NCBI RefSeq assembly: GCF_001457475.1
Contig: NZ_LN831029.1
Span: 1,240,001 to 1,304,000, forward strand
Length of the DNA stretch: 64,000 nt
Direction of reading: 5' to 3'
Origin: Achromobacter xylosoxidans
Lineage (GTDB): Bacteria; Pseudomonadota; Gammaproteobacteria; Burkholderiales; Burkholderiaceae_B
Part shown: piece after piece, positions 31,063 to 55,976 of the stretch
Numbering within the stretch: position 1 is the stretch's first letter
How the letters are laid out: the number at the start of each line of letters is the position of its first letter
Made by a program: the position numbers and the translations under genes
Notes under the pieces: model-generated
Databases searched by the model: none
Told to the model about the DNA's origin: nothing
Seen by the model: the letters and a program-made list of their open reading frames with translations, nothing else

Positions 31063-31134
31063 GGGGCCTGGGTGATGCGCCCAGGCGCGGTACCGGGGAA
31101 TCCCAAGGGCAAACGGAGATGAAGAGGGTTTCTC

Positions 31135-37374: not shown

Positions 37375-40300
37375 ATATCGAAGAACGCTTGAAGCAGCAC
37401 TATCTCGACTGCGAGCCGATCGCGGTGATCGGTCATGCCAGCCGGTTCCCGGACGCGGCCGACAGCGACGCCTATTGGGCCAACCTGCTGGCCGGGCGTG
37501 AATGCAGTCGGCAGTTTTCGCGGCAGGAACTGCTGGATGCCGGGATTCCGGCATCGGTCATCGACGATCCGGCCTTTGTGCCGCGTGGAACCGTGGTGCC
37601 CGACGCCGAGGCTTTCGACGCCGAGCTGTTCGGCTACTCCCGCCAGGAAGCCGAACTGCTCGACCCGCAGCAGCGGCTGTTCCTGCAGATGGCCTGGCAC
37701 GCGCTGGAGCACGCTGGCTATGCGCCCCGAGCGGTGCCACACAAGACCGGCGTGTTCGGCTCCGGCCGGATCAGCACCTATCCAGGGCGCGAGGCGATCA
37801 ACATCGCCGAAGTGGCGCACGTGCGCAGCCTGCAGTCCCTGATGGGCAATGACAAGGACTACGTGGCGACGCGCGCCGCCTACAAGCTGGATCTTCGCGG
37901 CCCGGCCATGTCCGTGCAGACGGCCTGCTCCAGTTCATTGGTCGCCACCCACCTGGCATGCGAGAGCCTGCGATCCGGCGAATGCGACATGGCCATCGCT
38001 GGCGGTGTGGCCGTCTCCTTCCCGCAGGTGAGCGGCTATTTGTACCAGCAGGGCATGATCTTCTCGCCCGACGGGCATTGCCGCCCGTTCGATGCGCAGG
38101 CCCAGGGCACCTATGGCGGCAATGGCGTGGCGGCCGTGGTGCTGCGGCGCCTGTCCGATGCGCTACGCGACGGCGATCCGGTCGTGGCGGTCGTACTGGG
38201 CAGCGCCATCAACAACGACGGCAGCCAGAAAGTCGGCTATACCGCGCCCTCCGTGCTCGGGCAGCGTGAGGTGATCGCCGATGCGTGGGCGCTGGCCGGA
38301 GTGCGCAGTGAGCAGATCGGCATGATCGAGGCCCACGGGACGGCGACTCCACTGGGCGATTCGATCGAACTGCAGGCGCTGCAGGGTGTATTCCATCCCG
38401 CCGGCCAAGGGCCCGCCTGCGCGCTGGGCTCGGTCAAGAGCAACATGGGGCACCTGGATACGGCTGCCGGCATTGCCAGCTTCCTCAAGGCGGTGCTGGC
38501 GGTCGAGCGCGGCGCGATCCCGCCATGCGTGAACTTCCAGCAGGCCAATCCGGCCTTGCACCTGGAAGACGGTCCTTTCTACGTGCCGCGCGAGGCCCAG
38601 TCCTGGGAGGCGCCGGTTCGCATCGCAGGCGTCTCGTCCTTCGGGATCGGCGGCACCAACTGCCATATGGTCGTGGCGTCCTTGCCGCAGGCCCTGCGTT
38701 CGGTGCATCAGCCCGAGGATGGGCAGCCCCATGGCGCTGATGAGGACGTGCTGCTGCTGAGCGCCAACAACGAAGGCGCGTTGCGGCGTCTGGCCGGTGC
38801 CTATGTACAGGCATTGCAAACCCAGCCTGTCGCAGACGTGGCCCATACGGCGCTGACGGGCCGCTTGCTCGACATGCCTTGGCGTCTGGCCGTGCCCGTA
38901 TGCGGTGAGACGGTGGATGCCTTGAACGCCTTCGCCCAGGGCGAGGACGACATTCTGATCCATGTCGGCCAAGGCGAAGCAGGCAAACGGGCATGGCTTT
39001 TCACCGGCCAGGGGTCGCAGTGGCCCGGCATGGCACGCGACTGGTACCACTCCTCCCCCGCCTTTGCCCAAGGCCTGGAGCGCTGCTTGGCGGCGTTCCA
39101 GAACCTGGATAGTGCTTTCGCCGAGCAACTGCGAAGGGCGCTGGTGGAGCCGGACAGCGATTTGCTCCAGCGCATGGAGTACGCACAGCCGGCCATCGTC
39201 GCTTTCGAACTGGCGATGGCTGCGCATTGGCAAGGCTTGGGGTTGGTACCGGACATGGTACTGGGCCATTCGGTCGGTGAATTCGCAGCGGCGGTCGTGG
39301 CCGGCCACTACAGCCACGAGCAGGTCATGCCGTTGGTGCGGCGGCGTGGCGCACTGATGGACCGCTGCCGCGGCGGCGCCATGCTCTCGGTCTTTGCCGA
39401 CGAGGCGCAAGTCATGCCGGTTGCCATGCGGCTGGGCCTCGACCTAGCGGCCTGCAACGGTGAGCGTCACCTGGTCTTCTCCGGCGAACGCGACTTGATC
39501 GCCAAACTGGCCACCGAACTCGAAGGCATGGGCGTGCGCAGCAATCCGCTGGCGGTCACGGGCGCGGCACATTCGCGGATGCTCGACCCGATCCTGCCGG
39601 AGTTCCGGCAGGCTGCGGGCGCGCTGCAGGCAAGACAGGGCGACATCGCGCTGATCTCCGGCCTGACTGGCGAGCTGGTGGATGCCGCGCTACTGAATCA
39701 GCCGGACTTCTGGCCAAGGCACATGCGCAACCCCGTGCGTTTCGTCCAGTGCCTGCGCAAGGCCATCGAAGACGGTGCAGGCATGTTCCTGGAAATGGGG
39801 CCGGATGCACCCCTGGTCGGTATCGGGCAGCGGGAGATGGGCGCTGGCGCCCACTGGATCGCCAGCGCCCGACGCAATCAATCCGCACGGCAACCGCTGC
39901 GGCAGGCCCTGATGCAACTGTTCGTCGCAGGCGTCGATCTGCCCTGGCCGCAGTTGCTGGGTGGCTCGGGGCGTAAATGCCATGTCCCGCTGTACCCCTT
40001 TGAACGTCAGCGCTACTGGCGTGAAGCAACCGCTGCCGCAGCGGCGAACGCGGCACAGCCGTTCTCGCACGGCACGCAACTGCCCACTGCACGCAATGTC
40101 GTGACGCGCGAAGCACGCGAGCTGGATTTGCCGCGCCTGGAGGCTCTGTATGAATGCGTGGTCAAACTGCATGCCATCTATGTCGACAGGTTGCTGCGCC
40201 GTTGCGTGGGTGAGCGCATCGACCGGGGCGTGACGGCACTGGATATCCTGCGTGATGGACGGCTTCTGCCCCGACATCGCCAATTGCTGGTGCGGCTGCT

Positions 40301-43300
40301 CAATGCCTGCACCGAAGACGGCTACCTGCAACAACAGGACGGCCGCTACCGCACGCGGGTTGCCGCACCGCACGCAGCACATGAACAACTGCTCGCCGAG
40401 CTGAAAAGTTACTGCGAGGGCCTGGGCGTCATCGCGGAAACCGTGCAGCGCGCGGGCGACAGCCTGTACGAGATGATGAGCGGCGCGATCGAACCTGTCG
40501 CTGTGATCTTCCCGGAGGGTGCCTCCAGCGGCGTGGAAGTCCTGTATCAGGATTTCAGCTTCGGGCGCTATTTCAATCAGATCGCCGCGGGTGTGGTCGC
40601 CGACCTGGTGCGCAGCCGTGGCGAACCCGGCGAACCGCTGCCGCCATATCGGGTGCTGGAGGTGGGTGGCGGCACGGGCGGCACCACTGCGTGGGTACTG
40701 CCGGCGTTGTCCAGCCAGCCGGACGTGCACTACGTGTTCACGGACATCTCGCCGATCTTCACCCGCCGCGCCGAGCAGAAATTCGCCGACTACGGCTTCG
40801 TCGAGTACCGGGAGTTCGATCTTCAGCAAAGTGCCGGGGCCCAGGGGTTCGCGGCGGGCGATTTCGACTTGATCGTGGCCGCCAACGTCATTCACGCCAC
40901 GCAGCACGTGGGGGATGCGCTGGCGAACCTGCTGCCCTTGCTCAAGCCGGGTGGCCGCTTGCTGATGCGCGAGATCACCCGGCCCATGCGCCTGTTCGAT
41001 TTCGTGTTCGGGCCGCTGGTTCTGCCATTGCATGATGAGCAGGCCCGTGGCGGCGAGCTGTTCCTGAGCACGGCGCACTGGCGCGATCAGTGTCTTGCCG
41101 CCGGCTTCGCCACTGTCGAATGGCTCCCGGACGACGGTACCGCCACGTCCGGCATGAGCGAGCACATCTTGCTGGCGACGGCACCCGGCGCGTCCGCTGC
41201 GCAGTCCACACCGATGCGGCTTGGCACTAGCGTATTGGGTCAGGCGCTCGCCAATGACGGCAGTTACCTGGCGGATTGGTCCGATTGTGCTGGGCAGGAC
41301 AGCCAATGGATCGACCGAGTTGGCAAGGCCAGCCGCGAAATGGCCCGTCGCCACGGCGATGGCAGGCACGTGCCCGCCATCGATGTTCCACCACGGGCAC
41401 CAGACTGGTTGGGCCTGGTTCGCCTGCAATGGCAGGCCCGACTGAACCAGCCGTCGAACATCGACCTGACGCTGCTTGGGCCGAATGGCCTCTGGCAGAG
41501 CCCACTGGCGTCCCCCGGTGGTGACGAAGACGGCCTGCCGAAGCTCTCCGCAACGCCAGACACGCACTACGACTGGTGCTGGGAACCGCTTGGCCGGGCG
41601 ACGGATGCCGTCGTCGGCAGGCGGCTGCGAGTGTTCGGGGAAATGGACGCCGGCCTGGTGTCCGAGCTGGCTCAGGTGGGCGTCACCCTGGATGAGGATG
41701 CCGGGGACATGCTGGTGCTGCTTCCGGAACACGCTGGCCTGGATGGCGTTGCCGAAACCGTGCTAGGTGCAATTCAAGAAGCCTCAGGCCAGGACGGCAG
41801 CCGCATTGTGGTGGTCACGCGGGCGGCATGGCCGGTGGCCGGCGACGAGAACGTCAGTGCGGCTCATCATGCTGTCTGGGGGCTGGCACGCACCGCGTCG
41901 GTCGAGTTTGCTGCCCCGGCAGCGGCCACGCGTTCCATCCTGATGGTCGATCTTGCAGTGGACGCGCCTTGGCAGGATCTGCTCGTTGGCCTGCATGCGA
42001 CGGAGAAATCCGGACAGTGGGTGGCCGTGCGCGAAGGCCATGCATGGGTGCCGCGACTACAGCCACACCGTTTTGCCGCTCCCGCGCTGAATGAACACAG
42101 CTTGCGAAGTGACGGCTGGCACGTGGTAACGGGCGGGTTGGGCGGCCTGGGTCGGTTGACGGCTGAATGGCTGGCCAGTCGCGGCGCAGGTCGAATCGCA
42201 TTGCTTGCGCATCGGCAGCAGGAGGACGCCGCTGACTTCATCGCCAGGCTGCGACAGCGCTATGCGGTCTTGGCGACGTGCGTGGTCTGCGACGTTGCCG
42301 ATCTGGCCGATCTTGATCGTGCGGTGGATCGTCTGTCGGCTGACGGCGGGCTGGCCGGTATCGTGCATGCCGCAGGCGTGCTCGACGATGGACCTATCTC
42401 GTCCTGGGATGCCCGTCGCCTTGCGCCTGTGCTGGCGGTCAAGGCTCACGCGGCGCGGCATCTGTACGAGAGACTGAGCCGGGCCGGTGGCAGGCTCTAT
42501 CTGTTGCTGTACTCATCGGCCGCCGCCGCCCTGGGCAGTGCGGGACAGGCCGGCCATGCCTTGGCGAGCGCCTATCTGGACGGCCTGGCGTATGAAGCCG
42601 CCGCCTGGGGTGATGAAAGCCCGGTCAAGGTGATTGCCATCGGCTGGGGCGCCTGGGGCCAAACCGGACGTGCGGCCGACGAAGCATTACAGGCAGCTCT
42701 CGCGCAGGACGGCATGGGGGTACTGAGCGATGCCGAAGGCCTATGGCATCTGGAGCAGGCACTGTCGCGCGGGGCGCCCTACCGCCTGGCGATGCGGGTG
42801 TTGCCCGAGCATCTGGATGATGGCCGCAAGCAGTTGCTGGGCCTCCTGCGCGAGACGGCGCGGCAGCCTGCGGTGCCGGTGGCAGGCAAGCCCGCCAAGG
42901 CCGCGCAAGCGCAGTCTCCGGACCTGCCGGCGGACCAACTGGCAGATGCCGGCGCGGTGGCGCAGTGGTTGGCAGCGCAGATCGCGGCTCAACTGAGGCT
43001 GGACGACCCATCGCGGCTTTCGGCCAAACGCGATCTGGTGCAACTGGGGCTGGATTCTCTGTTGTTCCTGGAACTGAGCAGCACCATCCAGCGCCGCCTG
43101 GGGGTACGCATCGACGCCGAACAAGCCTATCGGGATATGACGATCGCAGGCCTGAGCCGATTGATCGCCAGGCAAGCGGCGCAAGCCACCGAGGGGCCGT
43201 CGCAACCGACGCTGCTGCATCACGATGCGGCCGGTCGCTTCCAGCCATTCCCGCTGACGCCGATTCAGCATGCGTACTGGTTGGGACGCACCAGCCTGAT

Positions 43301-46300
43301 CGACTACGGCGGCGTGGCCTGCCATGTGCTGTTCGAGTGGGACCTGCGCCATGACCAGTTCGACCTGGAGCGTCTTGAGCAGGCCTGGAATGCGCTGATA
43401 CAGCGTCACGACATGCTCCGCATGGTGATTGGCGACGATGGCCAGCAGCGGATTCTGGAACATGTCCCCGAGTACCGCATCGAGCGCCGCAACCTGTCCG
43501 CGCTTTCCGCCGACGAACAGGAACGGATGCTGGCACAAACCCGGCAAGAGCTGTCCTACCGTGTCCTGCCGGCAGAGCGTTGGCCGCTGTTCGAGCTGAT
43601 CGCGTCGGAGCTGAACGGCGAACGCTATCGGCTGCACATGAACCTGGATCTGCTGCTGTTCGACGTGCAGAGCTTCAAGGTCATGATGGACGACTTGGCG
43701 GCCTTCTACCGGGGTGGCAGTCCGGAGCCGTTGCAGATCACCTTCCGCGACTACGTGCTCGGCGAACAGGCACGTCGCCAGACCGAGGATTGGCTCAGGT
43801 CGTGGTGCTACTGGCAGGACTTACTGGCTGAGCTTCCGCCTGCACCGAGCTTGCCGCTGTCCGATGGCGATCCGGACGGCCATCAGCCCAGTTTTACGAC
43901 CTATCAGGCGACCCTGGATCGTCAGAGCTGGACGGACTTGAAGGAGGAGTGGCGATCCTGGGGGGTGACCCCTTCGGCAGCGTTGATGACGCTGTTCGCC
44001 GTGACGCTGGAGCGCTGGGCACGCTGGCCGAGCTTCACCCTGAACCTCACGTTCTTCAATCGGCGTCCCGTGCATCCACAGATGAGCCAGTTGATTGGCG
44101 ACTTCACCTCGGTGCTGCTGGTCGATTTCGATCTGAGCGATGAATCCCTCACCCTGCGTGAGCGCATCGAGCAAACCCAGCGGCGCTTGCGCCAGCACCT
44201 GGCACACAGCCAGGTGAACGGCGTCGAACTGCTGCGGGAGGTAGGCCGCATTCGTGGGCAGTCGCATCAGCCGCTGATGCCGGTGGTATTCACGAGCATG
44301 CTGGGCATGACGCTGGATGGGCTGAACATCGATCAGGCCATGACCAGCCTGCTGGGCGACCCCGTGCATGTGTTCACGCAGACCCCACAGGTGTGGCTGG
44401 ATCACCAGGTCATGGAGATCGACGGGGAACTGGTGTTCAGCTGGTATTGCATGGACGAGGTGTTGGCCGAAGGGGCCGCACAGGCCATGTTCAGGGATTT
44501 TCATGCCGTACTGAAAGCGGTGGCGAATGCTCCGCAGCGGATGCAGCAGCCGGGAATATGGAAGCACCCCGAAGAGCAAGTTGAGCCTCTGCCTTTCGCG
44601 CGTCACGCGTGGTTCGCTGCCGCAAGCCAAGTCGACCCGAGAGAAATCGAGGCCGTCGCACTCCGACAGGAGGGCGTCTTTCAGGCCGATGCCCAGCACG
44701 ATGGCGTTGGCGGAAATCTGCTGGTCAAGGTGGTGGCGAAACCTCGCAGCTACGACCCGGCCGGTTTCACGGAGCCTGACCTGGGGGTTCTGCCGGAATT
44801 GGCAGGCCTGGAGCCAGCCGAGCAGAGCCTCTTCGATGCGGTGTGGCTGGCGCTGGAAACCCGTGCGCTGCACGGTATTGCCAGCACCCTGGCGAACCAT
44901 GGCCTGTTCGTGCAGGAACGCCAGGCGGTGGCATTGGATGCCATCTACCGTCGTCTGCAAGTGCTGCCGCAGTTCGAGCGCATCGTGCGCCAATGGCTTC
45001 GGGCGCTGACGACGGCGGGCTGGCTGAGCCAGGACGATGGGAACTTCGTGTGCCTGCGGCCCTTGAATGACATGCAGGCCCCGCCAGCCATGCCACCCAG
45101 CGCCTGGGGCGACACGCTGGCTCACTACCTGGACCGCAACGTGGAGCGGCATGCGCAATTGCTGCAAGGCACTTGCTTGGCCCTGGAACTGTTCTTTGCC
45201 GATGACTACGCGATCACGCGAGCACTTTATGCGCAGAACCCGGCTGCGCAATGCGTGATCCGCAACGTGGCGCATATCGTGCGGAGGCTGGGACAGTCGT
45301 TCCGGCCGGAGCGCCGCCTGCGCGTCATGGAGGTTGGCGCCGGCACCGGAGCCACCACGGGCACCGTGCTGGAAGCACTTGGCGACCGCCTGGACACCTA
45401 TCACTTCACCGATGTCTCGACGTTCTTCCTGGATGAAGCCTGCAAGCGATTCACGGGGCGCGGTGAACTGACCTACGGCATTTTCGACATCAACCAGCCG
45501 GTCGACTACGCGACGTACCCGGCCGAAAGCCATGATCTCGTGGTGGCCGCCCAGGTCATGCACGACGCCAGCCACGTCGTACGGTCGCTGCGCCGTATCG
45601 GCAGCCTGATGAAGCCAGGCGCCCGTCTCGTGCTGATCGAGGCCACTCACCGGGATAGCCTGTTGCAGATGGCCAGCGTGGGCTTCATCGAAGGGCTGGG
45701 CAACTACCAGGATCACCGGATCATCGACGACCGGGCCATGCTGAATCTGACCCAGTGGCGCGAGGCGTTGCAAGGCAGCGGCTTCTCGCTCGAACTGGCC
45801 TGGCCGGAAACCGCGGACTCCCCCATCCATCAGCATGTGATCGTGGCCCGCCTGGTACGCGCCGCCCACGTCGATTGCCAGGCGGTCAGGCAGTCGCTGA
45901 TACGGCATTTTGGTGAGACGTTGCCGGATGTCGAAGTGCGGCAAAGCGAGTCTCAGCACATGTTCGCCATCGGCGCCGCTGCAGGCGCGCGGGCCTTGGC
46001 TGCGAATGTGCCGGCGACGAGCACGCAGCCAGTGGTCGACGGCGCAGCCATGTCGTCCAACGCCCGCGAAGCGCCGGACGATGCGCTGATCAATAGTGTC
46101 GCCCAGATATGGCAGGCCTTCCTCGGCAGACCAGTGAGCCCGGAAAGCGACTTCTTCCACAGCGGCGGCGACAGCCTGATCGCTACGCGGGTCATTGCCC
46201 AGCTCAACCGCGTGGGCGTTGCGGGCGCCAGCCTGCAGGCGCTGTTCGCCCATCGCACCTTGGCGGCGTTCTGCGCCACGCTCGAAGGAATCAGGAGCCC

Positions 46301-47093
46301 GGATATGAAAAATGTTCTCGTACCCTTGACGCAAGGGCATACGCACGAACGCATGTTCGTCTTTCATGCCTCAGATGGCGGCGTGGCTTCGTACATGTCG
46401 TTCGCCGGGGCATTGGATGCCCAGGTGTGGGGCTTGCAGGCTCCGGAACAGATCGAAGTCGAAAGCCTGCAGACCCTGGCCTCCGGCTACCTGCACGCGA
46501 TGGGGACGAAGCTCGGCAGGGAGCCGCACATCCTGGTGGGATGGTCCTACGGCGCAGCAGTCGCTGCCGAGGTCGCACGCATGCTGCATGGTCGCGACAA
46601 GGCCGTTCGTCTGGTGTTGATAGACCCGGTGTACGGGGCCGACTTCGCGGTCGAGGACCTGTCCGCACTGATGATGATGCTGGCCGGCGAACACCAGATC
46701 GTTCTGCCAGAAAACTGGGAGGCACTGGATGAGCCGGCCCGCATCGAAGCGTTCGTTGTCGGTGCAGCTCAGGCGGGCGTCATCGCCGAGGCAATGCCCT
46801 CGGATGCCGCGCGTCAGTGGCTGATGCGCATTTTCCGTCTGCTGAACCTGCTGGCGGGGCATCGCATCGGGCGATCCATTCCGGCTCCCGTCCTGTGGAT
46901 CGAGGCAGACCGTCACCCGGATCATTGGACGCCGGCGGTGCGCGAATGGGCGGATTGGAAGGCACACGCGCAAACCCTGACCGTGACGGCCACGCACTGG
47001 CAACTCATGGCGGATGCGGACATCGCCGCTGCGCTGGCTGGCGATGTTCAGCAGTGGCTTGCCAGCACGAACTGCGCGGAGTCCACGAAATGA
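37371..47093 (+). CDS. irp1: HMWP1-like hybrid polyketide synthase / nonribosomal peptide synthetase
   Basis: The 3240-residue protein has all domains of Yersinia HMWP1 in order. KS: TACSSS (Cys186), EAHGTATPLGD, KSNMGHLD. AT: GHSVGE (Ser634). MT1: EVGGGTGG (1097-1104). KR: TGGLGGLG (1587-1594). ACP: LGLDSL (Ser1896). Cy3: D2093-x4-D2098. MT2: MEVGAGTG (2653-2660). PCP: GGDSL (Ser2935). TE: GWSYGA (Ser3059). It should add a methylated malonyl unit and a third, methylated cysteine-derived ring, then release the product. The KR departs from canon: the Tyr position is His1729 and the Asn position is Ser1733, while Ser1716 remains. Its stop overlaps the reductase start. Confidence 0.92.
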   Translation: MNIEERLKQHYLDCEPIAVIGHASRFPDAADSDAYWANLLAGRECSRQFSRQELLDAGIPASVIDDPAFVPRGTVVPDAEAFDAELFGYSRQEAELLDPQQRLFLQMAWHALEHAGYAPRAVPHKTGVFGSGRISTYPGREAINIAEVAHVRSLQSLMGNDKDYVATRAAYKLDLRGPAMSVQTACSSSLVATHLACESLRSGECDMAIAGGVAVSFPQVSGYLYQQGMIFSPDGHCRPFDAQAQGTYGGNGVAAVVLRRLSDALRDGDPVVAVVLGSAINNDGSQKVGYTAPSVLGQREVIADAWALAGVRSEQIGMIEAHGTATPLGDSIELQALQGVFHPAGQGPACALGSVKSNMGHLDTAAGIASFLKAVLAVERGAIPPCVNFQQANPALHLEDGPFYVPREAQSWEAPVRIAGVSSFGIGGTNCHMVVASLPQALRSVHQPEDGQPHGADEDVLLLSANNEGALRRLAGAYVQALQTQPVADVAHTALTGRLLDMPWRLAVPVCGETVDALNAFAQGEDDILIHVGQGEAGKRAWLFTGQGSQWPGMARDWYHSSPAFAQGLERCLAAFQNLDSAFAEQLRRALVEPDSDLLQRMEYAQPAIVAFELAMAAHWQGLGLVPDMVLGHSVGEFAAAVVAGHYSHEQVMPLVRRRGALMDRCRGGAMLSVFADEAQVMPVAMRLGLDLAACNGERHLVFSGERDLIAKLATELEGMGVRSNPLAVTGAAHSRMLDPILPEFRQAAGALQARQGDIALISGLTGELVDAALLNQPDFWPRHMRNPVRFVQCLRKAIEDGAGMFLEMGPDAPLVGIGQREMGAGAHWIASARRNQSARQPLRQALMQLFVAGVDLPWPQLLGGSGRKCHVPLYPFERQRYWREATAAAAANAAQPFSHGTQLPTARNVVTREARELDLPRLEALYECVVKLHAIYVDRLLRRCVGERIDRGVTALDILRDGRLLPRHRQLLVRLLNACTEDGYLQQQDGRYRTRVAAPHAAHEQLLAELKSYCEGLGVIAETVQRAGDSLYEMMSGAIEPVAVIFPEGASSGVEVLYQDFSFGRYFNQIAAGVVADLVRSRGEPGEPLPPYRVLEVGGGTGGTTAWVLPALSSQPDVHYVFTDISPIFTRRAEQKFADYGFVEYREFDLQQSAGAQGFAAGDFDLIVAANVIHATQHVGDALANLLPLLKPGGRLLMREITRPMRLFDFVFGPLVLPLHDEQARGGELFLSTAHWRDQCLAAGFATVEWLPDDGTATSGMSEHILLATAPGASAAQSTPMRLGTSVLGQALANDGSYLADWSDCAGQDSQWIDRVGKASREMARRHGDGRHVPAIDVPPRAPDWLGLVRLQWQARLNQPSNIDLTLLGPNGLWQSPLASPGGDEDGLPKLSATPDTHYDWCWEPLGRATDAVVGRRLRVFGEMDAGLVSELAQVGVTLDEDAGDMLVLLPEHAGLDGVAETVLGAIQEASGQDGSRIVVVTRAAWPVAGDENVSAAHHAVWGLARTASVEFAAPAAATRSILMVDLAVDAPWQDLLVGLHATEKSGQWVAVREGHAWVPRLQPHRFAAPALNEHSLRSDGWHVVTGGLGGLGRLTAEWLASRGAGRIALLAHRQQEDAADFIARLRQRYAVLATCVVCDVADLADLDRAVDRLSADGGLAGIVHAAGVLDDGPISSWDARRLAPVLAVKAHAARHLYERLSRAGGRLYLLLYSSAAAALGSAGQAGHALASAYLDGLAYEAAAWGDESPVKVIAIGWGAWGQTGRAADEALQAALAQDGMGVLSDAEGLWHLEQALSRGAPYRLAMRVLPEHLDDGRKQLLGLLRETARQPAVPVAGKPAKAAQAQSPDLPADQLADAGAVAQWLAAQIAAQLRLDDPSRLSAKRDLVQLGLDSLLFLELSSTIQRRLGVRIDAEQAYRDMTIAGLSRLIARQAAQATEGPSQPTLLHHDAAGRFQPFPLTPIQHAYWLGRTSLIDYGGVACHVLFEWDLRHDQFDLERLEQAWNALIQRHDMLRMVIGDDGQQRILEHVPEYRIERRNLSALSADEQERMLAQTRQELSYRVLPAERWPLFELIASELNGERYRLHMNLDLLLFDVQSFKVMMDDLAAFYRGGSPEPLQITFRDYVLGEQARRQTEDWLRSWCYWQDLLAELPPAPSLPLSDGDPDGHQPSFTTYQATLDRQSWTDLKEEWRSWGVTPSAALMTLFAVTLERWARWPSFTLNLTFFNRRPVHPQMSQLIGDFTSVLLVDFDLSDESLTLRERIEQTQRRLRQHLAHSQVNGVELLREVGRIRGQSHQPLMPVVFTSMLGMTLDGLNIDQAMTSLLGDPVHVFTQTPQVWLDHQVMEIDGELVFSWYCMDEVLAEGAAQAMFRDFHAVLKAVANAPQRMQQPGIWKHPEEQVEPLPFARHAWFAAASQVDPREIEAVALRQEGVFQADAQHDGVGGNLLVKVVAKPRSYDPAGFTEPDLGVLPELAGLEPAEQSLFDAVWLALETRALHGIASTLANHGLFVQERQAVALDAIYRRLQVLPQFERIVRQWLRALTTAGWLSQDDGNFVCLRPLNDMQAPPAMPPSAWGDTLAHYLDRNVERHAQLLQGTCLALELFFADDYAITRALYAQNPAAQCVIRNVAHIVRRLGQSFRPERRLRVMEVGAGTGATTGTVLEALGDRLDTYHFTDVSTFFLDEACKRFTGRGELTYGIFDINQPVDYATYPAESHDLVVAAQVMHDASHVVRSLRRIGSLMKPGARLVLIEATHRDSLLQMASVGFIEGLGNYQDHRIIDDRAMLNLTQWREALQGSGFSLELAWPETADSPIHQHVIVARLVRAAHVDCQAVRQSLIRHFGETLPDVEVRQSESQHMFAIGAAAGARALAANVPATSTQPVVDGAAMSSNAREAPDDALINSVAQIWQAFLGRPVSPESDFFHSGGDSLIATRVIAQLNRVGVAGASLQALFAHRTLAAFCATLEGIRSPDMKNVLVPLTQGHTHERMFVFHASDGGVASYMSFAGALDAQVWGLQAPEQIEVESLQTLASGYLHAMGTKLGREPHILVGWSYGAAVAAEVARMLHGRDKAVRLVLIDPVYGADFAVEDLSALMMMLAGEHQIVLPENWEALDEPARIEAFVVGAAQAGVIAEAMPSDAARQWLMRIFRLLNLLAGHRIGRSIPAPVLWIEADRHPDHWTPAVREWADWKAHAQTLTVTATHWQLMADADIAAALAGDVQQWLASTNCAESTK

Positions 47094-48223
47094 TCAGGTC
47101 CAATCCCAGCAAGAGCCGGCGCGTCGTGGTCGTCGGCGCGAAGTTCGGCGAGGTGTATCTCAATGCCTTCCTTCAGTCCCGGCCCGGTCTTCAGTTGGCA
47201 GGCCTGCTGGCTCGAGGCAGCCGAAGAGCGCAACAATTGGCGCACGACTTTGGCATCCCGCTCTATACCCGTCTGGAACAGCTTCCCGAAGACATCGACA
47301 TTGCCTGCGTGGTGGTTCGATCCACGGTGGCCCAGGGCGAAGGCAGTCAACTGGCTGCCGAACTGTTGAAACGTGGCATTCATGTGGTGCAGGAACATCC
47401 CTTGCATCCAGATGATGTCGAACGGCTCCAGACACTCGCCGAACAGCGTGGTCTGCGGTACTGGGTCAACAGTTTCTATCCGCACGTGCCGGCGGGCCGT
47501 TGCTGGATAGACCGGGCTACCCATGTCATGCAGCTCCTTGGCGGCGAGATGCCATGCGCGGCGCATCTGACGACCAGCCGCCAGTTGTTGTATTCGACGC
47601 TGGATCTGCTGCTGCAAGCCTGCGGCATCCCTGATGGCGGCCAAGTACAGGTTCAGCCGCTGGAGGGCGCCGACGCGCACTTCGTGCCCGTGAGCCTGGC
47701 GCTGCCAGGTGGATGCCGGGCGGTACTGCGTTTGCAAGCCTTTCTCGATCCATCCGATCCCGACATGCACAGCCTGGTGATGCACCAGGCCAGTCTGATG
47801 TGGCCTGCGGGCTATCTCACGCTGGAAGCAAGCTACGGGCCGGTGCTATGGACAGGTCATTTCCACGATGCGCAGCACGACAGCCAGCAACGCACGATGT
47901 ATCGCTATGTCCCGGCCGAGGCCGTCTATGCGCGTCCAACCTGCGCAGTGCTGCACGATGCGCCAGCCACCTGGCGGGACGCGTTTGAGGTCGATGGCGT
48001 TTCTGGCGTTGCCGGCGTTCTGCAGACCCTCTGCCAGGTTCTGGACGGCGAGCGCGTACCGACGGCCTTCGATCCCGCATATCAGTTGTCTCTGGCGCGT
48101 CTTTGGCTCGACGTCCTGCGCGTTGTTCCGCCTGCGGAGGAGCGACGCCTATCGCCACCCCAAGTCGTGACCTGGGACGAGGTGCAGACGGATCACGGAA
48201 ACGCAGGAGGCACGGATGGCTGA
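47090..48223 (+). CDS. ybtU: thiazolinyl imide reductase, YbtU/Irp3-like
   Basis: The 377-residue protein has an N-terminal Rossmann region (RRVVVVGAKFGEVYLNAF) and the family sequences HVVQEHPLHPDDV and YWVNSFYPHVPAGR typical of Irp3/PchG-type reductases. In yersiniabactin synthesis YbtU reduces the second thiazoline to a thiazolidine on the assembly line with NADPH. The start at 47090 overlaps the HMWP1-like stop (ATGA), and its end overlaps the next gene by 8 bases. Confidence 0.9.
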   Translation: MIRSNPSKSRRVVVVGAKFGEVYLNAFLQSRPGLQLAGLLARGSRRAQQLAHDFGIPLYTRLEQLPEDIDIACVVVRSTVAQGEGSQLAAELLKRGIHVVQEHPLHPDDVERLQTLAEQRGLRYWVNSFYPHVPAGRCWIDRATHVMQLLGGEMPCAAHLTTSRQLLYSTLDLLLQACGIPDGGQVQVQPLEGADAHFVPVSLALPGGCRAVLRLQAFLDPSDPDMHSLVMHQASLMWPAGYLTLEASYGPVLWTGHFHDAQHDSQQRTMYRYVPAEAVYARPTCAVLHDAPATWRDAFEVDGVSGVAGVLQTLCQVLDGERVPTAFDPAYQLSLARLWLDVLRVVPPAEERRLSPPQVVTWDEVQTDHGNAGGTDG

Positions 48224-49001
48224 CCTGATGCCGTTGTGCGCAACAAGCGAGCCCTGCGCAGAGGATACCCATCTTGTGCTGTGCCCCTTCGCTGGCGGGA
48301 GTGCGAGCGCGTTCCGCAGTTGGCGCGATCTGCGGCCTTATGGCTGGCAGGTCTGGTTGGCGGTCTATCCCGGACGCGATCAACGGATGAACGAGGCCTG
48401 CGCGGCAAGTATCGCCGAACTGGCCGATCAGGTTCTGATGGCCATCGACACGCATCAGATCGCCCAACAGCAACTTGTGATCGCCGGTCACAGCATGGGG
48501 GCCCAGGTGGCATTCGAGGTTTGCTTGCGGCTGGAACAGCGCGGCTCGGCGCCGCTCGGTCTGGTTTTGTCCGGATGCCATGCGCCGCACCTGCATGGCC
48601 GGCGCCTCATCAGCCACCTTGAAGATCGCGCATTCCTTGAGCAATTGGTCGCCATTGGTGGGAACGCACAGGAGCTATTGAACGAGCCCGGCTTGTGGCC
48701 TGTGTTCATGCCGATGCTGCGGGCGGATTTCAAGGCAACCGAAAGCTATTGGCATCCTCAGAAACCGGGGGAACGGCGGCGACTTCAAACGCCGACGTTG
48801 TTGATCTACGGCAGTGCAGACCAGGAGGCCTGGCGATCGGAAGTCGAAGCATGGAAAAGCTGGCTATCCGACGTCGATGGGCCGGTAGCCATTGCTGGCG
48901 AACACTTTTATGTCACTCGTCGTCCGAGAGCTTTTCTGGAGCACATCAGACGGCGTTTTGAACCGAATTCCGCGCACTCAGCGACGTGCGCGTTCAAATG
49001 A
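48216..49001 (+). CDS. ybtT: type II thioesterase, YbtT-like
   Basis: The 261-residue alpha/beta hydrolase shows LCPFAGGSASAFRSW near the N-terminus, the nucleophile elbow AGHSMGA and a late catalytic GEHFYV. Type II thioesterases edit misprimed carrier domains of synthetases. It lies between the reductase and the fused ligase-synthase, the usual neighbourhood of ybtT. Confidence 0.9.
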   Translation: MADLMPLCATSEPCAEDTHLVLCPFAGGSASAFRSWRDLRPYGWQVWLAVYPGRDQRMNEACAASIAELADQVLMAIDTHQIAQQQLVIAGHSMGAQVAFEVCLRLEQRGSAPLGLVLSGCHAPHLHGRRLISHLEDRAFLEQLVAIGGNAQELLNEPGLWPVFMPMLRADFKATESYWHPQKPGERRRLQTPTLLIYGSADQEAWRSEVEAWKSWLSDVDGPVAIAGEHFYVTRRPRAFLEHIRRRFEPNSAHSATCAFK

Positions 49002-49013
49002 AGGAGCATTGTG

Positions 49014-51953
49014 ATGAAAGCCGACATTTCCGATCCGCTTCAGGGCACGAGAGAAAAACCCATGCCCCTTGGGCATTGCCTTGCGCAATGGGCGCGCAAC
49101 TACGGCGACCGAATCGTGCTGATCAATGAGACGGGTGAATGCCTGACCTACACGCAGTTGCACGAACGTGTCGAGCGCATCGCCGGTGGTTTGTACGCCT
49201 CGGGCCTGCGTGCTGGCGACCATGCCATGGTGCATATGCCCAACACCTTCGGCTTCTTCTATTCGTTCTTCGCACTCTTGCGTGTGGGTGTCATCCCCGT
49301 CATGGCGATGCCCAATCAACGAGAGCAGGACATCGATGCGTTGATGGCCTTGGCGCAACCGACGGCCTACTTCATTCCCGATGATGTTGGCGAGCATGAC
49401 TATCTGGCGTTGGCGCAACGCATGCAGGCCAAGTATGAGAGCCTCCGGTTGGTTGTGATGGATGGAGACGTCGAGAACGAAACGCGCAACGTACAGATCT
49501 TGACTGCACTCCGGGGTTCCGCATGCCCCTGGCCCGAACAGGATGAGCGCGACACCGCCGTACTGCTGCTTTCGGGTGGCACAACGGGAACGCCAAAGCT
49601 GATTCCCCGCACCCATGGGGACTATTTCTACAACTTCACCGCTTCCGCCAGTCTGTGTGGATTCGATCGGGAGATGGTGTTCCTGGCGGTGCTTCCGGCC
49701 GCGCACAACTTCACGCTCGCATCTCCGGGTGTGCTTGGAACATTTCAGTGCGGCGGCACCGTCGTGACATCGGTCTCGGCCAGTTGCGATGAAACCATGC
49801 CGCTGATCGAGAAGTACAAGGTGACGCATGTGGCGTTGGTGCCACCGCTGGCCAAGTTGTGGGTGGAAGGCCGTGAATGGGAGGACAGTGACCTATCCAG
49901 CCTCAAGCTGATACAGGTGGGAGGTGCCCGTCTGGAGGCGGGATTGGCCCGGCAACTGGTCGATGTCATCGGCTGCAAATTGCAGCAGGTCTTTGGCATG
50001 GCCGAGGGGCTGCTGTGCTACACGCGCCTGAACGATCCGCTGGACACGATCATCCATACCCAGGGGCGACCCTTGTCCCCCGAAGATGAGGTTCGAATCG
50101 TCGATGAGGACGACCATGACGTTCCTGAAGGTCAAGTCGGGCAGTTGCTGACCCGGGGTCCGTACACGATTCGTGGCTACTTCCGGGCACCAGTACAGAA
50201 CGCGTCCAGCTTTACCGAGGATGGCTTTTACCGTTCCGGCGACCTGGTACGTCGTGACGCGAATGGCAATCTGACTGTCGAAGGTCGTATCAAGGAGCAG
50301 ATCAACCGCTGCGGCGAAAAAATTTCTGCGGCCGAGATCGAAGAGGCAATCAGTCTGCTTCACGGTGTCCATGCCGCCGCCGCAGTCGGTGTGCCAGACG
50401 AGCTGCTGGGCGAGCGCATCTGCGTTTTCATCAAGCCGGAAGGTGGTCAGACGATCGATCCTCTGCACATCAAGGCGGCGCTGCGCGAAGGAGGTTTGAG
50501 CGAGTATAAGGTGCCGGATCAGATCGAAACGATCTCCGAATGGCCCCTGACCGCAGCTAAGAAAGTCGATAAGCGCCGCCTGGTCGCGGTCGCCCTCCAA
50601 CGCGCCTCGGCTTCTCCGGAAGCCAAGCCATCGAGTTACTTGCAGGAGTCGGCGGCAACAGATGCGACGCCGTTCGAGTTGGCGGTCAAAGTGGCCGAAG
50701 TTATCCGACATGACACCAGCAACTACGTCTTATACGAACATCACGGCGAATGGACATTGGGGTTGGAGTGCGCCATGCGGATTACGGTGGAGGTCGATGG
50801 AACAGTCCGCCGCAGTGATGGGAAGTCGTGGCGATCAGCGTCTGTCAGCGAAAGCATCGAACAGGCCATGTCCGACATCCCGTTCGTTGACTGGCGTGCT
50901 TATGGCCGTGCCGACTTCGAGTTCGCCTATCTAACGTATGGTCTGGACAATCCGTACAGCTCGGGCCCCTTGCTCACCATCGTCATACCGAAAAGCGAAA
51001 TCCGTATTCGGCTTGGAACTGTACAACTGCGCACCCTGGACAGCGCAGAAATGCCTCGGTTGGTGGCGATCGTACAAACGGCCGAAAAGAGAGGGCTTCC
51101 ACGAGTCGATTCGCCTATCGCTCTGGACGTGCGCTCTACGGGGGGTATGCCGTACCGCGACATCGTGGCTTCGGCGGTACAGGAGATGCAACAGGGTCGG
51201 TATCAGAAAGTCATCCTGTCCCGCGCTGTGGAAATTCCGTCCACGGTGGATATGGTGGCCAGCTACTACGCCGGGCGCAAATCCAATACGCCGGCCCGAT
51301 CATTCCTCATGAAGGATGGCGAGTTCCAAGCCTATGGGTTCAGCCCTGAAATCGTCGTGACCGTTGATGCTGAGCGCAACGTAACGACTCAGCCTTTGGC
51401 TGGAACCCGTGCATTGACAGGTGCGCCGGAGAAGGACCAGCAGTTGCGCAAGGAACTGGAGTCGGATGTGAAGGAGATCGCGGAGCATGCGGTTTCGGTG
51501 AAACTCGCCGTCCAGGAAATGCTGCAGGCATGCCGGGCCGAATCGGTCGTCGTGGACGAGTTCATGACCGTCCAGGAGCGCGGCAGCGTGCAGCACCTGG
51601 CGTCGCATGTGAGGGGCGTTCTGGCCCCTGGTGCCAGCGCATGGACTGCATTCGAGAAGCTGTTCCCCGCTGTCACGGCATCCGGTATCCCGAAGAGGGA
51701 GGCTTTGGAAAGCATCAACAGGCATGAGGGCCGCGCGCGAGGGCTTTACAGTGGATGTGTGCTGATCGCCGACAGCGACGGCTCGCTGGATGCGGCCCTG
51801 GTGCTTCGTTCGGCGTATCGAGGTGCAGGCCGTGCCTGGCTGCAGGCCGGTGCAGGGCTGGTGCCGCATTCGACGCCAGAGCGCGAGTGGGAGGAAACCT
51901 GCGAGAAGCTGACATCCGTCGGACCCTACCTGATTTCCTCTGAGGAGCATTGA
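49014..51953 (+). CDS. fused salicyl-AMP ligase and salicylate synthase (YbtE-YbtS-like)
   Basis: This single 979-residue protein joins two enzymes that are separate in Yersinia. Residues 1 to about 530 are a YbtE/EntE-type aryl acid adenylating enzyme: SGGTTGTPK (187-195), PAAHNFTL, FGMAEGL, and RCGEKISAAEIEEA near the C-terminal lysine-containing lobe. Residues about 545-979 are an MbtI/Irp9-type salicylate synthase: PLAGTRAL (794-801), ESDVKEIAEH, GSVQHLASHVRG, ASGIPKREAL and GLYSGCV. It would convert chorismate to salicylate and load it on the aryl carrier. AAGGAG suits ATG 49014 better than the GTG three bases earlier. The 3' end shows no break between the halves. Confidence 0.92.
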   Translation: MKADISDPLQGTREKPMPLGHCLAQWARNYGDRIVLINETGECLTYTQLHERVERIAGGLYASGLRAGDHAMVHMPNTFGFFYSFFALLRVGVIPVMAMPNQREQDIDALMALAQPTAYFIPDDVGEHDYLALAQRMQAKYESLRLVVMDGDVENETRNVQILTALRGSACPWPEQDERDTAVLLLSGGTTGTPKLIPRTHGDYFYNFTASASLCGFDREMVFLAVLPAAHNFTLASPGVLGTFQCGGTVVTSVSASCDETMPLIEKYKVTHVALVPPLAKLWVEGREWEDSDLSSLKLIQVGGARLEAGLARQLVDVIGCKLQQVFGMAEGLLCYTRLNDPLDTIIHTQGRPLSPEDEVRIVDEDDHDVPEGQVGQLLTRGPYTIRGYFRAPVQNASSFTEDGFYRSGDLVRRDANGNLTVEGRIKEQINRCGEKISAAEIEEAISLLHGVHAAAAVGVPDELLGERICVFIKPEGGQTIDPLHIKAALREGGLSEYKVPDQIETISEWPLTAAKKVDKRRLVAVALQRASASPEAKPSSYLQESAATDATPFELAVKVAEVIRHDTSNYVLYEHHGEWTLGLECAMRITVEVDGTVRRSDGKSWRSASVSESIEQAMSDIPFVDWRAYGRADFEFAYLTYGLDNPYSSGPLLTIVIPKSEIRIRLGTVQLRTLDSAEMPRLVAIVQTAEKRGLPRVDSPIALDVRSTGGMPYRDIVASAVQEMQQGRYQKVILSRAVEIPSTVDMVASYYAGRKSNTPARSFLMKDGEFQAYGFSPEIVVTVDAERNVTTQPLAGTRALTGAPEKDQQLRKELESDVKEIAEHAVSVKLAVQEMLQACRAESVVVDEFMTVQERGSVQHLASHVRGVLAPGASAWTAFEKLFPAVTASGIPKREALESINRHEGRARGLYSGCVLIADSDGSLDAALVLRSAYRGAGRAWLQAGAGLVPHSTPEREWEETCEKLTSVGPYLISSEEH

Positions 51954-51989: not shown

Positions 51990-52742
51990 ATGACGGCGTG
52001 GATTCCCGGACTGGCCGACCTTCTGGAATTGTCGCCTGACATCCGATTGTCCGGGCTGGCGCTGCCAACTGGTCGGACGTCGATGAATTTACTCGGGCAT
52101 GCCTCGGCCAGTTGGCCGGGGCTGCCCATGGTGTCGGGCATGAGTCACAAGCGGCGAACAGAATTCCTTGCAGGGCGGCTTTGCGCCCTCCATTCGTTAT
52201 GGGAGATGGGGGTCGATGCCGAATTTCCATTGCCCGCGCAAGATCGGATTCCCATCTGGCCCCCTGGAATCCTGGGCAGCATCAGTCATTGCGCGTCAAT
52301 GGCCGTCGCCATGGCGGCGCCGGCCTCCAGATTTCATGGCTTGGGCATCGACGTTGAGACGTTGATCGATGCCGAGGTCGCGCAGGACATACGGCGCAGC
52401 GTCAGCCGTGATTGCGAACTGGATTGCCTGGAGCGAAACATTCCCTGCCGCGCTCGATCTTTGACGCTTCTGTTTTCCGCCAAAGAGGCTCTCTACAAGG
52501 CGCTGTATCCATTGTCGCGCCAATACAAAGACTTCCATGCCGCGGAAATCATTTCCTACCAAACCAAGGCCCTCGTACTGCGATTGACGGAGGACTGGTG
52601 CGGATCGTGGCGAGGTGGAGCCTGCGTGGAGGTGCGATATGCATGGTTGGACCGTGAGGTGCTGACGGCAGTCTGCATACCGCGCGTATCACCCATTCAC
52701 TCACGCAGCGCCGTTGCAGCAGTCGCGGAGCCTAAATTTTGA
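51990..52742 (+). CDS. ybtD: EntD-type 4'-phosphopantetheinyl transferase, YbtD-like
   Basis: The 250-residue protein has the family motifs GSISHC (96-101), GIDVE (119-123, metal-binding Asp121 and Glu123) and FSAKEALYKALYP (162-174, Glu166 and Lys170). It adds the phosphopantetheine arm to the carrier domains of the two synthetases. It ends the biosynthetic operon, 36 bases after the fused enzyme gene. The ribosome-binding sequence for the chosen ATG is weak. In Yersinia pestis ybtD lies outside the main locus, so having it here makes the island self-sufficient. Confidence 0.88.
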   Translation: MTAWIPGLADLLELSPDIRLSGLALPTGRTSMNLLGHASASWPGLPMVSGMSHKRRTEFLAGRLCALHSLWEMGVDAEFPLPAQDRIPIWPPGILGSISHCASMAVAMAAPASRFHGLGIDVETLIDAEVAQDIRRSVSRDCELDCLERNIPCRARSLTLLFSAKEALYKALYPLSRQYKDFHAAEIISYQTKALVLRLTEDWCGSWRGGACVEVRYAWLDREVLTAVCIPRVSPIHSRSAVAAVAEPKF

Positions 52743-53732: not shown

Positions 53733-55676
53733 TCATCCCGCAGCGACCACGGTGTCCTCCATCATCCGCCGAATGCTCTGTCGCACCTGTTCGGGAACGG
53801 ATTGCGATTCGGCGGCTTCGTGCGTAACTGCATGGGGCTGATGAGTACCCATGATGGCGCGGACAATGGCCGGCACATTGGTGGCGGTGACCACATCGAT
53901 AGCCGCGCGATCCCCCAGGTCCGGGTGGGGCTTGGTCAGCATGCGGTACAGCTCCCATGAGTCGGCATATGGGCACTGGTTCATGAGCACCTGCGCCAGC
54001 TTGTGCTTGAGCGGCACCAGTTGCCAGTCGGGAACCCGCTGCCCCCGATTGCCCAGACTGATGGACAGCAGCTTGCCCGCTTTCAGCTCGCGATTGATCT
54101 GGTCCTTGGACTTCCCGGCCAGCTTGCCGAACAGCGGGACCGGCAAATTACTCGGCGATTCGTACATAGCCAGCATTTCTTCGCGCTCACGCTGGATGGC
54201 GGAAATTTCCGGTTCTGGTGCCCGCGTCGGAGGCGGCGGCACCTGCGACAGCCGCTGGAATGTGATGCCACCGTTATTCGGGGTTACGACAATGGGCGCG
54301 GCCAGTGCGGGCGGGATGCCGGGGGAAGTGGGTTCTGCCGTTGCTGAGGTCACGCCCACCGCGTCCTCAACTTCGGCCATTGCCGGCACCCCATCAATAC
54401 GGATGGTCAGGTGCGCACTGGCGGCTTGTACTTCCCCGTGTTCCAGCAAGTCAAGGCGATCAGCCCAGTCCTGCATCATCCGCCGGCGCGGCTCCACGTA
54501 CTTGGCGTGGTTGTACGCCGAGCTGACCTTGTTCGGGTCGGAGTGCGAAAGCTGCGCGTCCACCCAGATTTTCGGGTACCCAATCTCGTTGAGTGCCGTG
54601 GAGATGGTTCCGCGAATGCCGTGGCCCGTCAGCCGATCCTCGCAGCCCATGCGCTTCAGAGCTGCATTGAGAGTGTTCTCGCTGATGCGTTTCTTGAGGT
54701 CGCTGCGGTGCGACAGCAGGTACTTCTGCGCTGGCCGCATCACGCCCTGCAGGTAGCGCACGATCTCGATGGCCTGCAAGGACAGGGGCACGATGTAGGG
54801 AGGTACGTCCTGCGGCCGCTTGCCCGCCTTGCGCATCTCGTCCTGGAGCTGCTTGACGATTTCGGGAGGGATGATCCAGAGGCCGCGGTCGAGGTCGAAC
54901 TGATCCGGAGTCGCAAGTCGTAGCTCACCCGTACGCACACCGGTCAGGAACAGCAACCGGATGCCAAGCTGAGTCTGCCAACCGCGAGGGTTATAGAGGC
55001 GGAGGTTCTGGAGGAACTCGGGGAGTTCGGGCAGCCGCAGGTAGGGGTTGTGGGTAACTGGCGGTTTGGGTTCGGCCACGACGTCCAGATCCGTCGCCGG
55101 ATTGGATTCCATGCCCTCGACCACGACCAGGGCATAGCGGAACAACTGCCCCAGCCAGGTACGAACCTTTTCGGCAGTGGTGAAGGCCTTGCGCTTCTCG
55201 ATCCTTGCCAGAACCCCGAGAAGTTGAGGCCGACGAATATCGTAGATCGACATCTTCCCCAGGGTGGGCAGCACATCCTTGCCGAAGATGCGCTTGATCT
55301 GCGACAGCGTGCTGTTCCGGCCGGTTTTGAGTTCCTTCGAGCGATGTTCAACCCAAGCGTCGTAGACGGCCTTGAAGGTGAAATCCGATGCCAGCTTGAC
55401 GGCATGGCGCTTTTGCTTGCGATCGAGATGAGGATTGATGCCCTTGGCGAGAAGCGCCCGGGCTTCGTCGCGCAAGGCACGGGCCTCGCGCAGGCAGACC
55501 TCGGGGTAGTTACCCAGGGATATGCGTTTTTGCTTGCCGAGCCAGTAGTAGCGCAGGTGCCACGATTTGCCCCCGGTAGGGGCGACCACCAGGCCAAGGC
55601 CATCAGTGTCGGGGAGGTTGTAGGTTTTGTCAGCGGCCCTAGCTTGCCGCACCATCAGATCAGAGAGTGCCATCAT
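53733..55676 (-). CDS. int: ICE tyrosine integrase, IntB13/P4-like, with extra C-terminal domain
   Basis: The 647-residue recombinase has an N-terminal DUF4102-like arm-binding part (LTDxx-type start, YNLPDTDGLGLVV, ISLGNYPEVCLREAR) and a catalytic domain with Arg248 (GVRTGELR), His352-x2-Arg355 (HGIR), His378 (LSHSD) and Tyr388. After about residue 410 comes a long Pro-rich linker and then a C-terminal segment (about 500-620) whose KPHPDLGDRAAIDVV resembles the toxin-binding domain of Xre/MbcA/ParS antitoxins. At about 650 residues it matches ICEclc IntB13-type enzymes rather than 400-residue P4 integrases. It is transcribed away from the tRNA-Gly it targets. Confidence 0.9.
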   Translation of the reverse strand: MMALSDLMVRQARAADKTYNLPDTDGLGLVVAPTGGKSWHLRYYWLGKQKRISLGNYPEVCLREARALRDEARALLAKGINPHLDRKQKRHAVKLASDFTFKAVYDAWVEHRSKELKTGRNSTLSQIKRIFGKDVLPTLGKMSIYDIRRPQLLGVLARIEKRKAFTTAEKVRTWLGQLFRYALVVVEGMESNPATDLDVVAEPKPPVTHNPYLRLPELPEFLQNLRLYNPRGWQTQLGIRLLFLTGVRTGELRLATPDQFDLDRGLWIIPPEIVKQLQDEMRKAGKRPQDVPPYIVPLSLQAIEIVRYLQGVMRPAQKYLLSHRSDLKKRISENTLNAALKRMGCEDRLTGHGIRGTISTALNEIGYPKIWVDAQLSHSDPNKVSSAYNHAKYVEPRRRMMQDWADRLDLLEHGEVQAASAHLTIRIDGVPAMAEVEDAVGVTSATAEPTSPGIPPALAAPIVVTPNNGGITFQRLSQVPPPPTRAPEPEISAIQREREEMLAMYESPSNLPVPLFGKLAGKSKDQINRELKAGKLLSISLGNRGQRVPDWQLVPLKHKLAQVLMNQCPYADSWELYRMLTKPHPDLGDRAAIDVVTATNVPAIVRAIMGTHQPHAVTHEAAESQSVPEQVRQSIRRMMEDTVVAAG

Positions 55677-55900: not shown

Positions 55901-55918
55901 TGGAGCGGGAGACGAGTC
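55901..55918. other. probable ICE attachment site at the 3' end of tRNA-Gly
   Basis: ICEclc-type integrases recombine at the last 18 or so bases of tRNA-Gly. Here those bases (CCA end to the T arm) lie 225 bases from the start of the IntB13-like gene, marking the ICE/chromosome border. The partner copy would be outside the window on the left. The exact core is inferred from the family, not seen as a repeat. Confidence 0.6.
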
Positions 55919-55976
55919 TCGAACTCGCGACCTCAACCTTGGCAAGGTTGCGCTCTACCAACTGAGCTACTCCCGC
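55901..55976 (-). tRNA. tRNA-Gly (anticodon GCC)
   Basis: The 76-base minus-strand sequence begins GCGGGAGTAGCTCAGTTGG and folds as a cloverleaf: acceptor GCGGGAG with CTCCCGC, anticodon stem CAACC/GGTTG with loop TTGCCAA (anticodon GCC), T arm GCGAG/CTCGT region with TTCGAGA, and encoded CCA. It is the integration target of the ICE. Confidence 0.95.

Follow-up and report, generated by a model that had tools for sequence, protein, structure and literature searches.

A predicted bifunctional salicyl-AMP ligase and salicylate synthase in a yersiniabactin-type siderophore operon, carried by a putative integrative conjugative element of Achromobacter xylosoxidans

The window analysed here is a stretch of 64,000 nucleotides from the Achromobacter xylosoxidans genome (contig NZ_LN831029.1, positions 1,240,001 to 1,304,000). 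On its forward strand a single open reading frame at 49014..51953 encodes a fused salicyl-AMP ligase / salicylate synthase of 979 amino acids, counted from the ATG at 49014. A GTG at 49011 is an alternative start, AGGAG lies just 5′ of the start of the gene, and the stop codon ends at 51953. Pfam domains were found at residues 24-390 (AMP-binding), 441-517 (AMP-binding_C) and 714-965 (Chorismate_bind). The protein can be divided into a ligase half (49014..50582, residues 1-523), a linker (50583..50633, about residues 524-540) and a salicylate synthase half (50634..51950, residues 541-979), all encoded on the forward strand. Residues 559-974 matched the NCBIfam salicylate synthase model TIGR03494 with 494.7 bits, above its cut-off of 325.15. 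The NCBIfam model nearest to the N-terminal half was (2,3-dihydroxybenzoyl)adenylate synthase, TIGR02275, and assignment of this half as an EntE-type dihydroxybenzoate enzyme was rejected on its score of 575.6 bits, below the cut-off of 723.55.

The ligase half contains the motif SGGTTGTPK at residues 187-195 and a lysine, K517, which is kept in all 86 ligase halves compared; among solved structures its relatives are those of a salicylate-AMP ligase (5wm2), a 2,3-dihydroxybenzoate-AMP ligase (1md9) and PchD (7tyb). For the synthase half the solved relatives are MbtI (2g5f) and Irp9 (2fn0). Residues K732, E779, H861, T888, Y912, R932, E958, E961 and K965 align with MbtI K205, E252, H334, T361, Y385, R405, E431, E434 and K438, numbered by counting on the alignment with the solved structures; these are active-site residues of MbtI. 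K732, E821, H861, T888, Y912, R932 and K965 are identical in 79 of 79 synthase halves and E779 in 78 of 79, and E958, E961 and K965 are invariant in an alignment of 24 sequences. A sequence-only reading of this DNA had proposed an unbroken frame in which a complete ligase and a complete salicylate synthase are joined, each with its conserved motifs. The frame, the Pfam and TIGR03494 domains and the residues listed above bear this out, and the family matches agree with the arrangement of the domains and with both predicted activities. Elsewhere in the genome neither half has a close homologue, the next best matches being 29% identical over the ligase half and 36% identical over a 250-residue part of the synthase half.

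The fused gene lies in a siderophore operon on the forward strand. The first gene (31135..37374) encodes an HMWP2-like non-ribosomal peptide synthetase with an N-terminal carrier domain (residues 18-82), an adenylation domain, two condensation-type stretches and three carrier stretches. It is followed by an HMWP1-like PKS/NRPS (37371..47093), a YbtU-like thiazolinyl imide reductase (47090..48223; the reading frame opens at 46817, and the ATG at 47090 overlaps the HMWP1 stop), a YbtT-like thioesterase (48216..49001), the fused gene, and an EntD-like phosphopantetheinyl transferase (51990..52742) that scored 94.3 bits, below the curated cut-off of 169. The order HMWP2-HMWP1-YbtU-YbtT-fused gene compares with HMWP1-YbtU-YbtT-ligase in a Klebsiella locus (L083), where we take the genes to be those named YbtU, YbtT and YbtE. 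The fused gene thus occupies the ybtE place of a yersiniabactin-type operon. Yersiniabactin HMWP1 has the domain order KS-AT-MT-KR-ACP-Cy-MT-PCP-TE, and contains no adenylation domain. The HMWP1-like protein in the window has this order (KS, AT, methyltransferase, KR, carrier, condensation-type, methyltransferase, carrier, thioesterase), its middle domain being a condensation-type stretch, and no adenylation domain was found in it.

Two ABC half-transporters, two TonB receptors and an AraC-type regulator are encoded upstream. Directly before the HMWP2 gene, at 28180-31062, lie genes for a HlyD-type membrane fusion protein and an outer-membrane efflux protein, which possibly provide an export route for the siderophore. 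The HMWP2 gene is also overlapped on the reverse strand by an open frame of 2243 amino acids (30271-37002), probably a by-product of the high G+C content.

Downstream of the operon a tyrosine integrase is encoded on the reverse strand (53733..55676) beside a tRNA-Gly (gcc) gene (55901..55976, reverse strand), which is adjoined by the chromosomal murB gene, whose product is 98% identical to a protein named for Achromobacter xylosoxidans. The last 18 bp of the tRNA gene form one end of the element, and the same 18 bases recur beside a tRNA-Cys at G000:C1:1135456-1135473. These repeats bound about 160 kb (G000:C1:1135456-1295918), with the siderophore cluster inside. A TraI/MobH relaxase of the class found in PFGI-1-type integrating conjugative elements is encoded at 4921..6729 on the forward strand. 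An integrase beside tRNA-Gly, a far-end repeat of the tRNA 3′ end and a MobH relaxase, as expected of an integrative conjugative element, are therefore all present, and the insertion in tRNA-Gly is of the ICEclc kind. The siderophore operon is, on these sequence features, cargo of an integrative conjugative element of about 160 kb in tRNA-Gly that would be mobile. Azoarcus taiwanensis (L009) shares this gene block, HMWP1 through integrase, at 88-96% identity, which suggests that it was transferred recently. Searches of the open-licence literature listed no paper with an Achromobacter yersiniabactin element as the subject of its title.

A close functional precedent is PxbJ of Xenorhabdus szentirmaii, described in PMC9396620 as a bifunctional enzyme of the photoxenobactin/piscibactin pathway, equivalent to YbtS plus YbtE. 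According to the same source, deletion of pxbJ abolished products 1-6 and complementation restored them, and the HMWP1 homologue of pxb/irp clusters is without cMT1 and carries an additional Cy-A-T module. In X. szentirmaii DSM 16338 we found a fused open reading frame (L027) with 49% identity to the window protein over residues 23-975. Its single frame encodes the three domains in an identical arrangement, and from strain and architecture we infer that it is the gene named pxbJ. PxbJ serves the pxb assembly line, whereas in the HMWP1-like protein of the window a methyltransferase separates AT from KR and no adenylation domain is found, so that this protein fits yersiniabactin rather than pxb. 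A pxb-type assembly line for the window was accordingly rejected, as a methyltransferase occupies the cMT1 position and the extra adenylation module described in PMC9396620 is missing. The other relatives are free-standing. YbtE is 56-57% identical to the ligase half and has the same place in its operon, after YbtU and YbtT, but the window protein adds the synthase half. YbtS/Irp9 belongs to the same family as the synthase half, but stands alone. Plasmids of Photobacterium damselae, Rhizobium, Pseudonocardia, Streptomyces and Vibrio encode both kinds of enzyme in two genes near each other. Among open-licence papers, the literature searches turned up one description of the fusion, PMC9396620; the words 'fused' and 'fusion' do not occur in PMC12971057.

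To see how widespread the fusion is, about 5.8 billion proteins were searched, giving at least 7114 matches at E ≤0.001 (7998 candidates scored). Among the best 120, precomputed Pfam annotation showed AMP-binding together with Chorismate_bind in 118; the exceptions were P0037 and P0042, the latter (557 aa) stopping 15 residues past the linker tyrosine. When a single genome was scanned for each species, 499 places were confirmed, the best 80 of which represent 79 distinct loci. A single frame spans the junction in 68 of these 79, a proportion that overstates the fused share among all salicylate pathways because the searches were seeded with fused sequences and only the best places were kept. 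Three of the 68 are incomplete elsewhere: L087 matches residues 303-933 and lies near a contig end, L070 matches from residue 148 only, and in Psychromonas hadalis (L073:7159-10291) the ligase half is split over two overlapping frames near residue 264, reflecting either a sequencing error or a decaying gene. The 11 loci without a spanning frame comprise YbtE-type ligases of Klebsiella, Raoultella and Salmonella (L079-L084), ligases of Pseudomonas cichorii and P. agarici (L085-L086), a lone synthase (L076), and two loci, L077 and L078, in which both enzymes are encoded separately. Split pairs also occur in several of the 20 plasmid records listed. The joined enzyme is thus common in bacteria and of a kind already described, and the suggestion from the sequence alone that no characterised protein has this order does not hold, given the homologue counts and the description of PxbJ as bifunctional (PMC9396620). 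What the locus adds is a further host and a further cluster for a named and studied enzyme type, on an apparently transferable element.

What was directly observed is the unbroken frame with its domains and conserved catalytic residues, the place of the gene in the operon, the ends of the element, and the relatives. All this is best explained if the protein acts as a bifunctional starter enzyme of the PxbJ type in a siderophore pathway like that of yersiniabactin, with its operon on an integrative conjugative element. We consider this very probable as a whole, including the predicted activities, product and mobility and the presumed lack of a tunnel between the active sites. From family membership and PxbJ genetics, the C-terminal half would convert chorismate, via isochorismate, to salicylate. 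The N-terminal half would then convert salicylate and ATP to salicyl-AMP and load it on the first carrier domain of the HMWP2-like synthetase, the product of the upstream gene. Joined by a flexible linker, the halves would work as separate domains, and the fusion would probably pay off mainly through equal amounts of both enzymes and a single transcript, rather than through a physical tunnel.

Three other readings bear on this explanation. Two genes might appear as one if a stop codon had been missed in sequencing or assembly, but both domains are present in nearly all of the listed homologues, and the junction is in one frame at most of the genome loci examined. These include the relatives that are 94% (L009, Azoarcus taiwanensis), 82% (L010), 76% (L019) and 71% (L011) identical; with such relatives running through the junction in one frame, the chance of an artefact is negligible. 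A different question is which acid the ligase half activates. In PMC3672683 salicylate ligases are described as having Cys and Leu/Ile at two discriminating positions. At these positions the window protein has Ser237 and Leu334, whereas the YbtE sequences have Cys/Leu and two EntE-type sequences Ser/Val. The ligase half may possibly be loose in its choice of substrate, or prefer 2,3-dihydroxybenzoate: S237 is the serine of dihydroxybenzoate enzymes, and the separate Irp5 of Vibrio anguillarum is promiscuous according to PMC12421891. Leu334, however, is of the salicylate type, and the fusion partner is a salicylate synthase scoring above its family cut-off. Moreover, among 69 fused sequences, 39 have Cys/Leu, 15 Ser/Leu, 13 Cys/Ile and 2 Asn/Ile, and the 15 include the protein of the PxbJ strain, whose pathway products carry salicylate according to PMC9396620. 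The objection from Ser237 is therefore weak, and we regard a loose or dihydroxybenzoate-preferring ligase as improbable.

The fusion might also channel salicylate from one active site to the other, so that free salicylate would hardly leave the protein. The domain order and the fusion itself are kept in divergent relatives, with one frame in 68 of 79 loci, and the two halves evolve together: across the 69 fused sequences their distances correlate at 0.936, and none of 999 permutations gave a value as high. Co-inheritance of the halves needs no channel, however, and related ligases, such as those of the YbtE group and of P. cichorii, exist without a synthase half. The linker region, taken from residue 523 up to Y542, ranges from 9 to 35 residues across 24 relatives and is variable in sequence as well. 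An AlphaFold2 model built on the 24-sequence alignment had a mean pLDDT of 86.8, with values below 50 at residues 534-537, and a pTM of 0.52. The model thus predicts two sound domains with no confident mutual placement, an outcome consistent with channelling or with none. Taken with the linker, this makes channelling unlikely in our judgement, and we prefer the reading of two separate, flexibly joined domains.

The history of the fused and split forms was examined in trees of the ligase halves. A quick tree contained 86 sequences, leaving out ten duplicate loci, L070, L073 and L087 (partial or broken) and 13 further Xenorhabdus/Photorhabdus loci. A careful tree used 63 of these 86 (22 thinned out and the long-branch L077 dropped) and was rooted with two EntE-type ligases. 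The YbtE sequences nest among the fused ones, with support of 99/98 for a set of 21 sequences (17 fused and 4 split), and the ligases of P. cichorii and P. agarici also fall inside the fused group (99/92 for a set of 24). The nearest neighbour of YbtE was weakly supported (81/72), and the tree program warned of two long branches meeting, those of the outgroup and of the Photobacterium/Vibrio ligases. Forcing the 49 fused sequences into one clade cost 66.9 log-likelihood units and was rejected (AU p = 0.0017), for a grouping chosen after the quick tree was known. Because free-standing YbtE falls inside the fused enzymes, the fused form looks like the older one, from which the split form would be derived. 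The shared history of the two halves points to a single ancient fusion followed by losses, rather than to repeated fusion, change counts alone being unable to tell gain from loss.

It seems somewhat more probable than the reverse that the fused enzyme is the older form in this yersiniabactin-like lineage, and that the split arrangement arose later, when the ligase lost its synthase half and a separate supply of salicylate was recruited. In the enterobacterial island this supply would be a divergent YbtS, and in P. cichorii a PchB/PchA-like pair. The YbtS sequences of Klebsiella and Salmonella are about 42% identical to the synthase half and lie on a long branch (length 2.04) whose place has no real support (43, in a quick tree with midpoint root); YbtS may either descend from a lost synthase half or have replaced it. 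In P. cichorii (L085:9986-13260) the ligase gene is followed by genes for an isochorismate lyase (NF005475, 156.1 bits against a cut-off of 126) and an isochorismate synthase (NF005459, 625.7 against 475). Judged by family matches, this pair looks like a replacement for the missing synthase half. No salicylate synthase above the family cut-off was found in the P. cichorii and P. agarici genomes. The opposite loss may have occurred in Brenneria salicis, where a lone salicylate synthase (L076:9887-11314) is 70% identical to the C-terminal half and no ligase match lies in the surrounding 21 kb. The only ligase in that genome at E ≤1e-60 is elsewhere, is EntE-type and is 45% identical. In the quick tree that holds YbtS, the Brenneria synthase groups with the fused enzymes of Erwinia at an SH-aLRT of 96, and the set that includes the window protein has 97, so that from its placement it looks like the remnant of a fused enzyme that lost its ligase half.

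The standard yersiniabactin gene arrangement may thus be a derived exception, which bears on the use of gene order to trace siderophore pathways. It also bears on annotation, because a name, where one is given to a fused protein among the best 120, mostly covers only one of the two activities.

Origin of the fusion by simple loss of a stop codon in a synthase-first operon was rejected, as the split plasmid pairs have the synthase gene first, the reverse of the order in the fusion, in all five loci examined (by annotation, and by open reading frames for L113). A ligase gene followed, after a stop, by a neighbouring synthase gene in the same frame was seen among the 79 loci only in Pseudoalteromonas ostreae (L077:9902-12895) and Streptomyces triticagri (L078:9392-13324).
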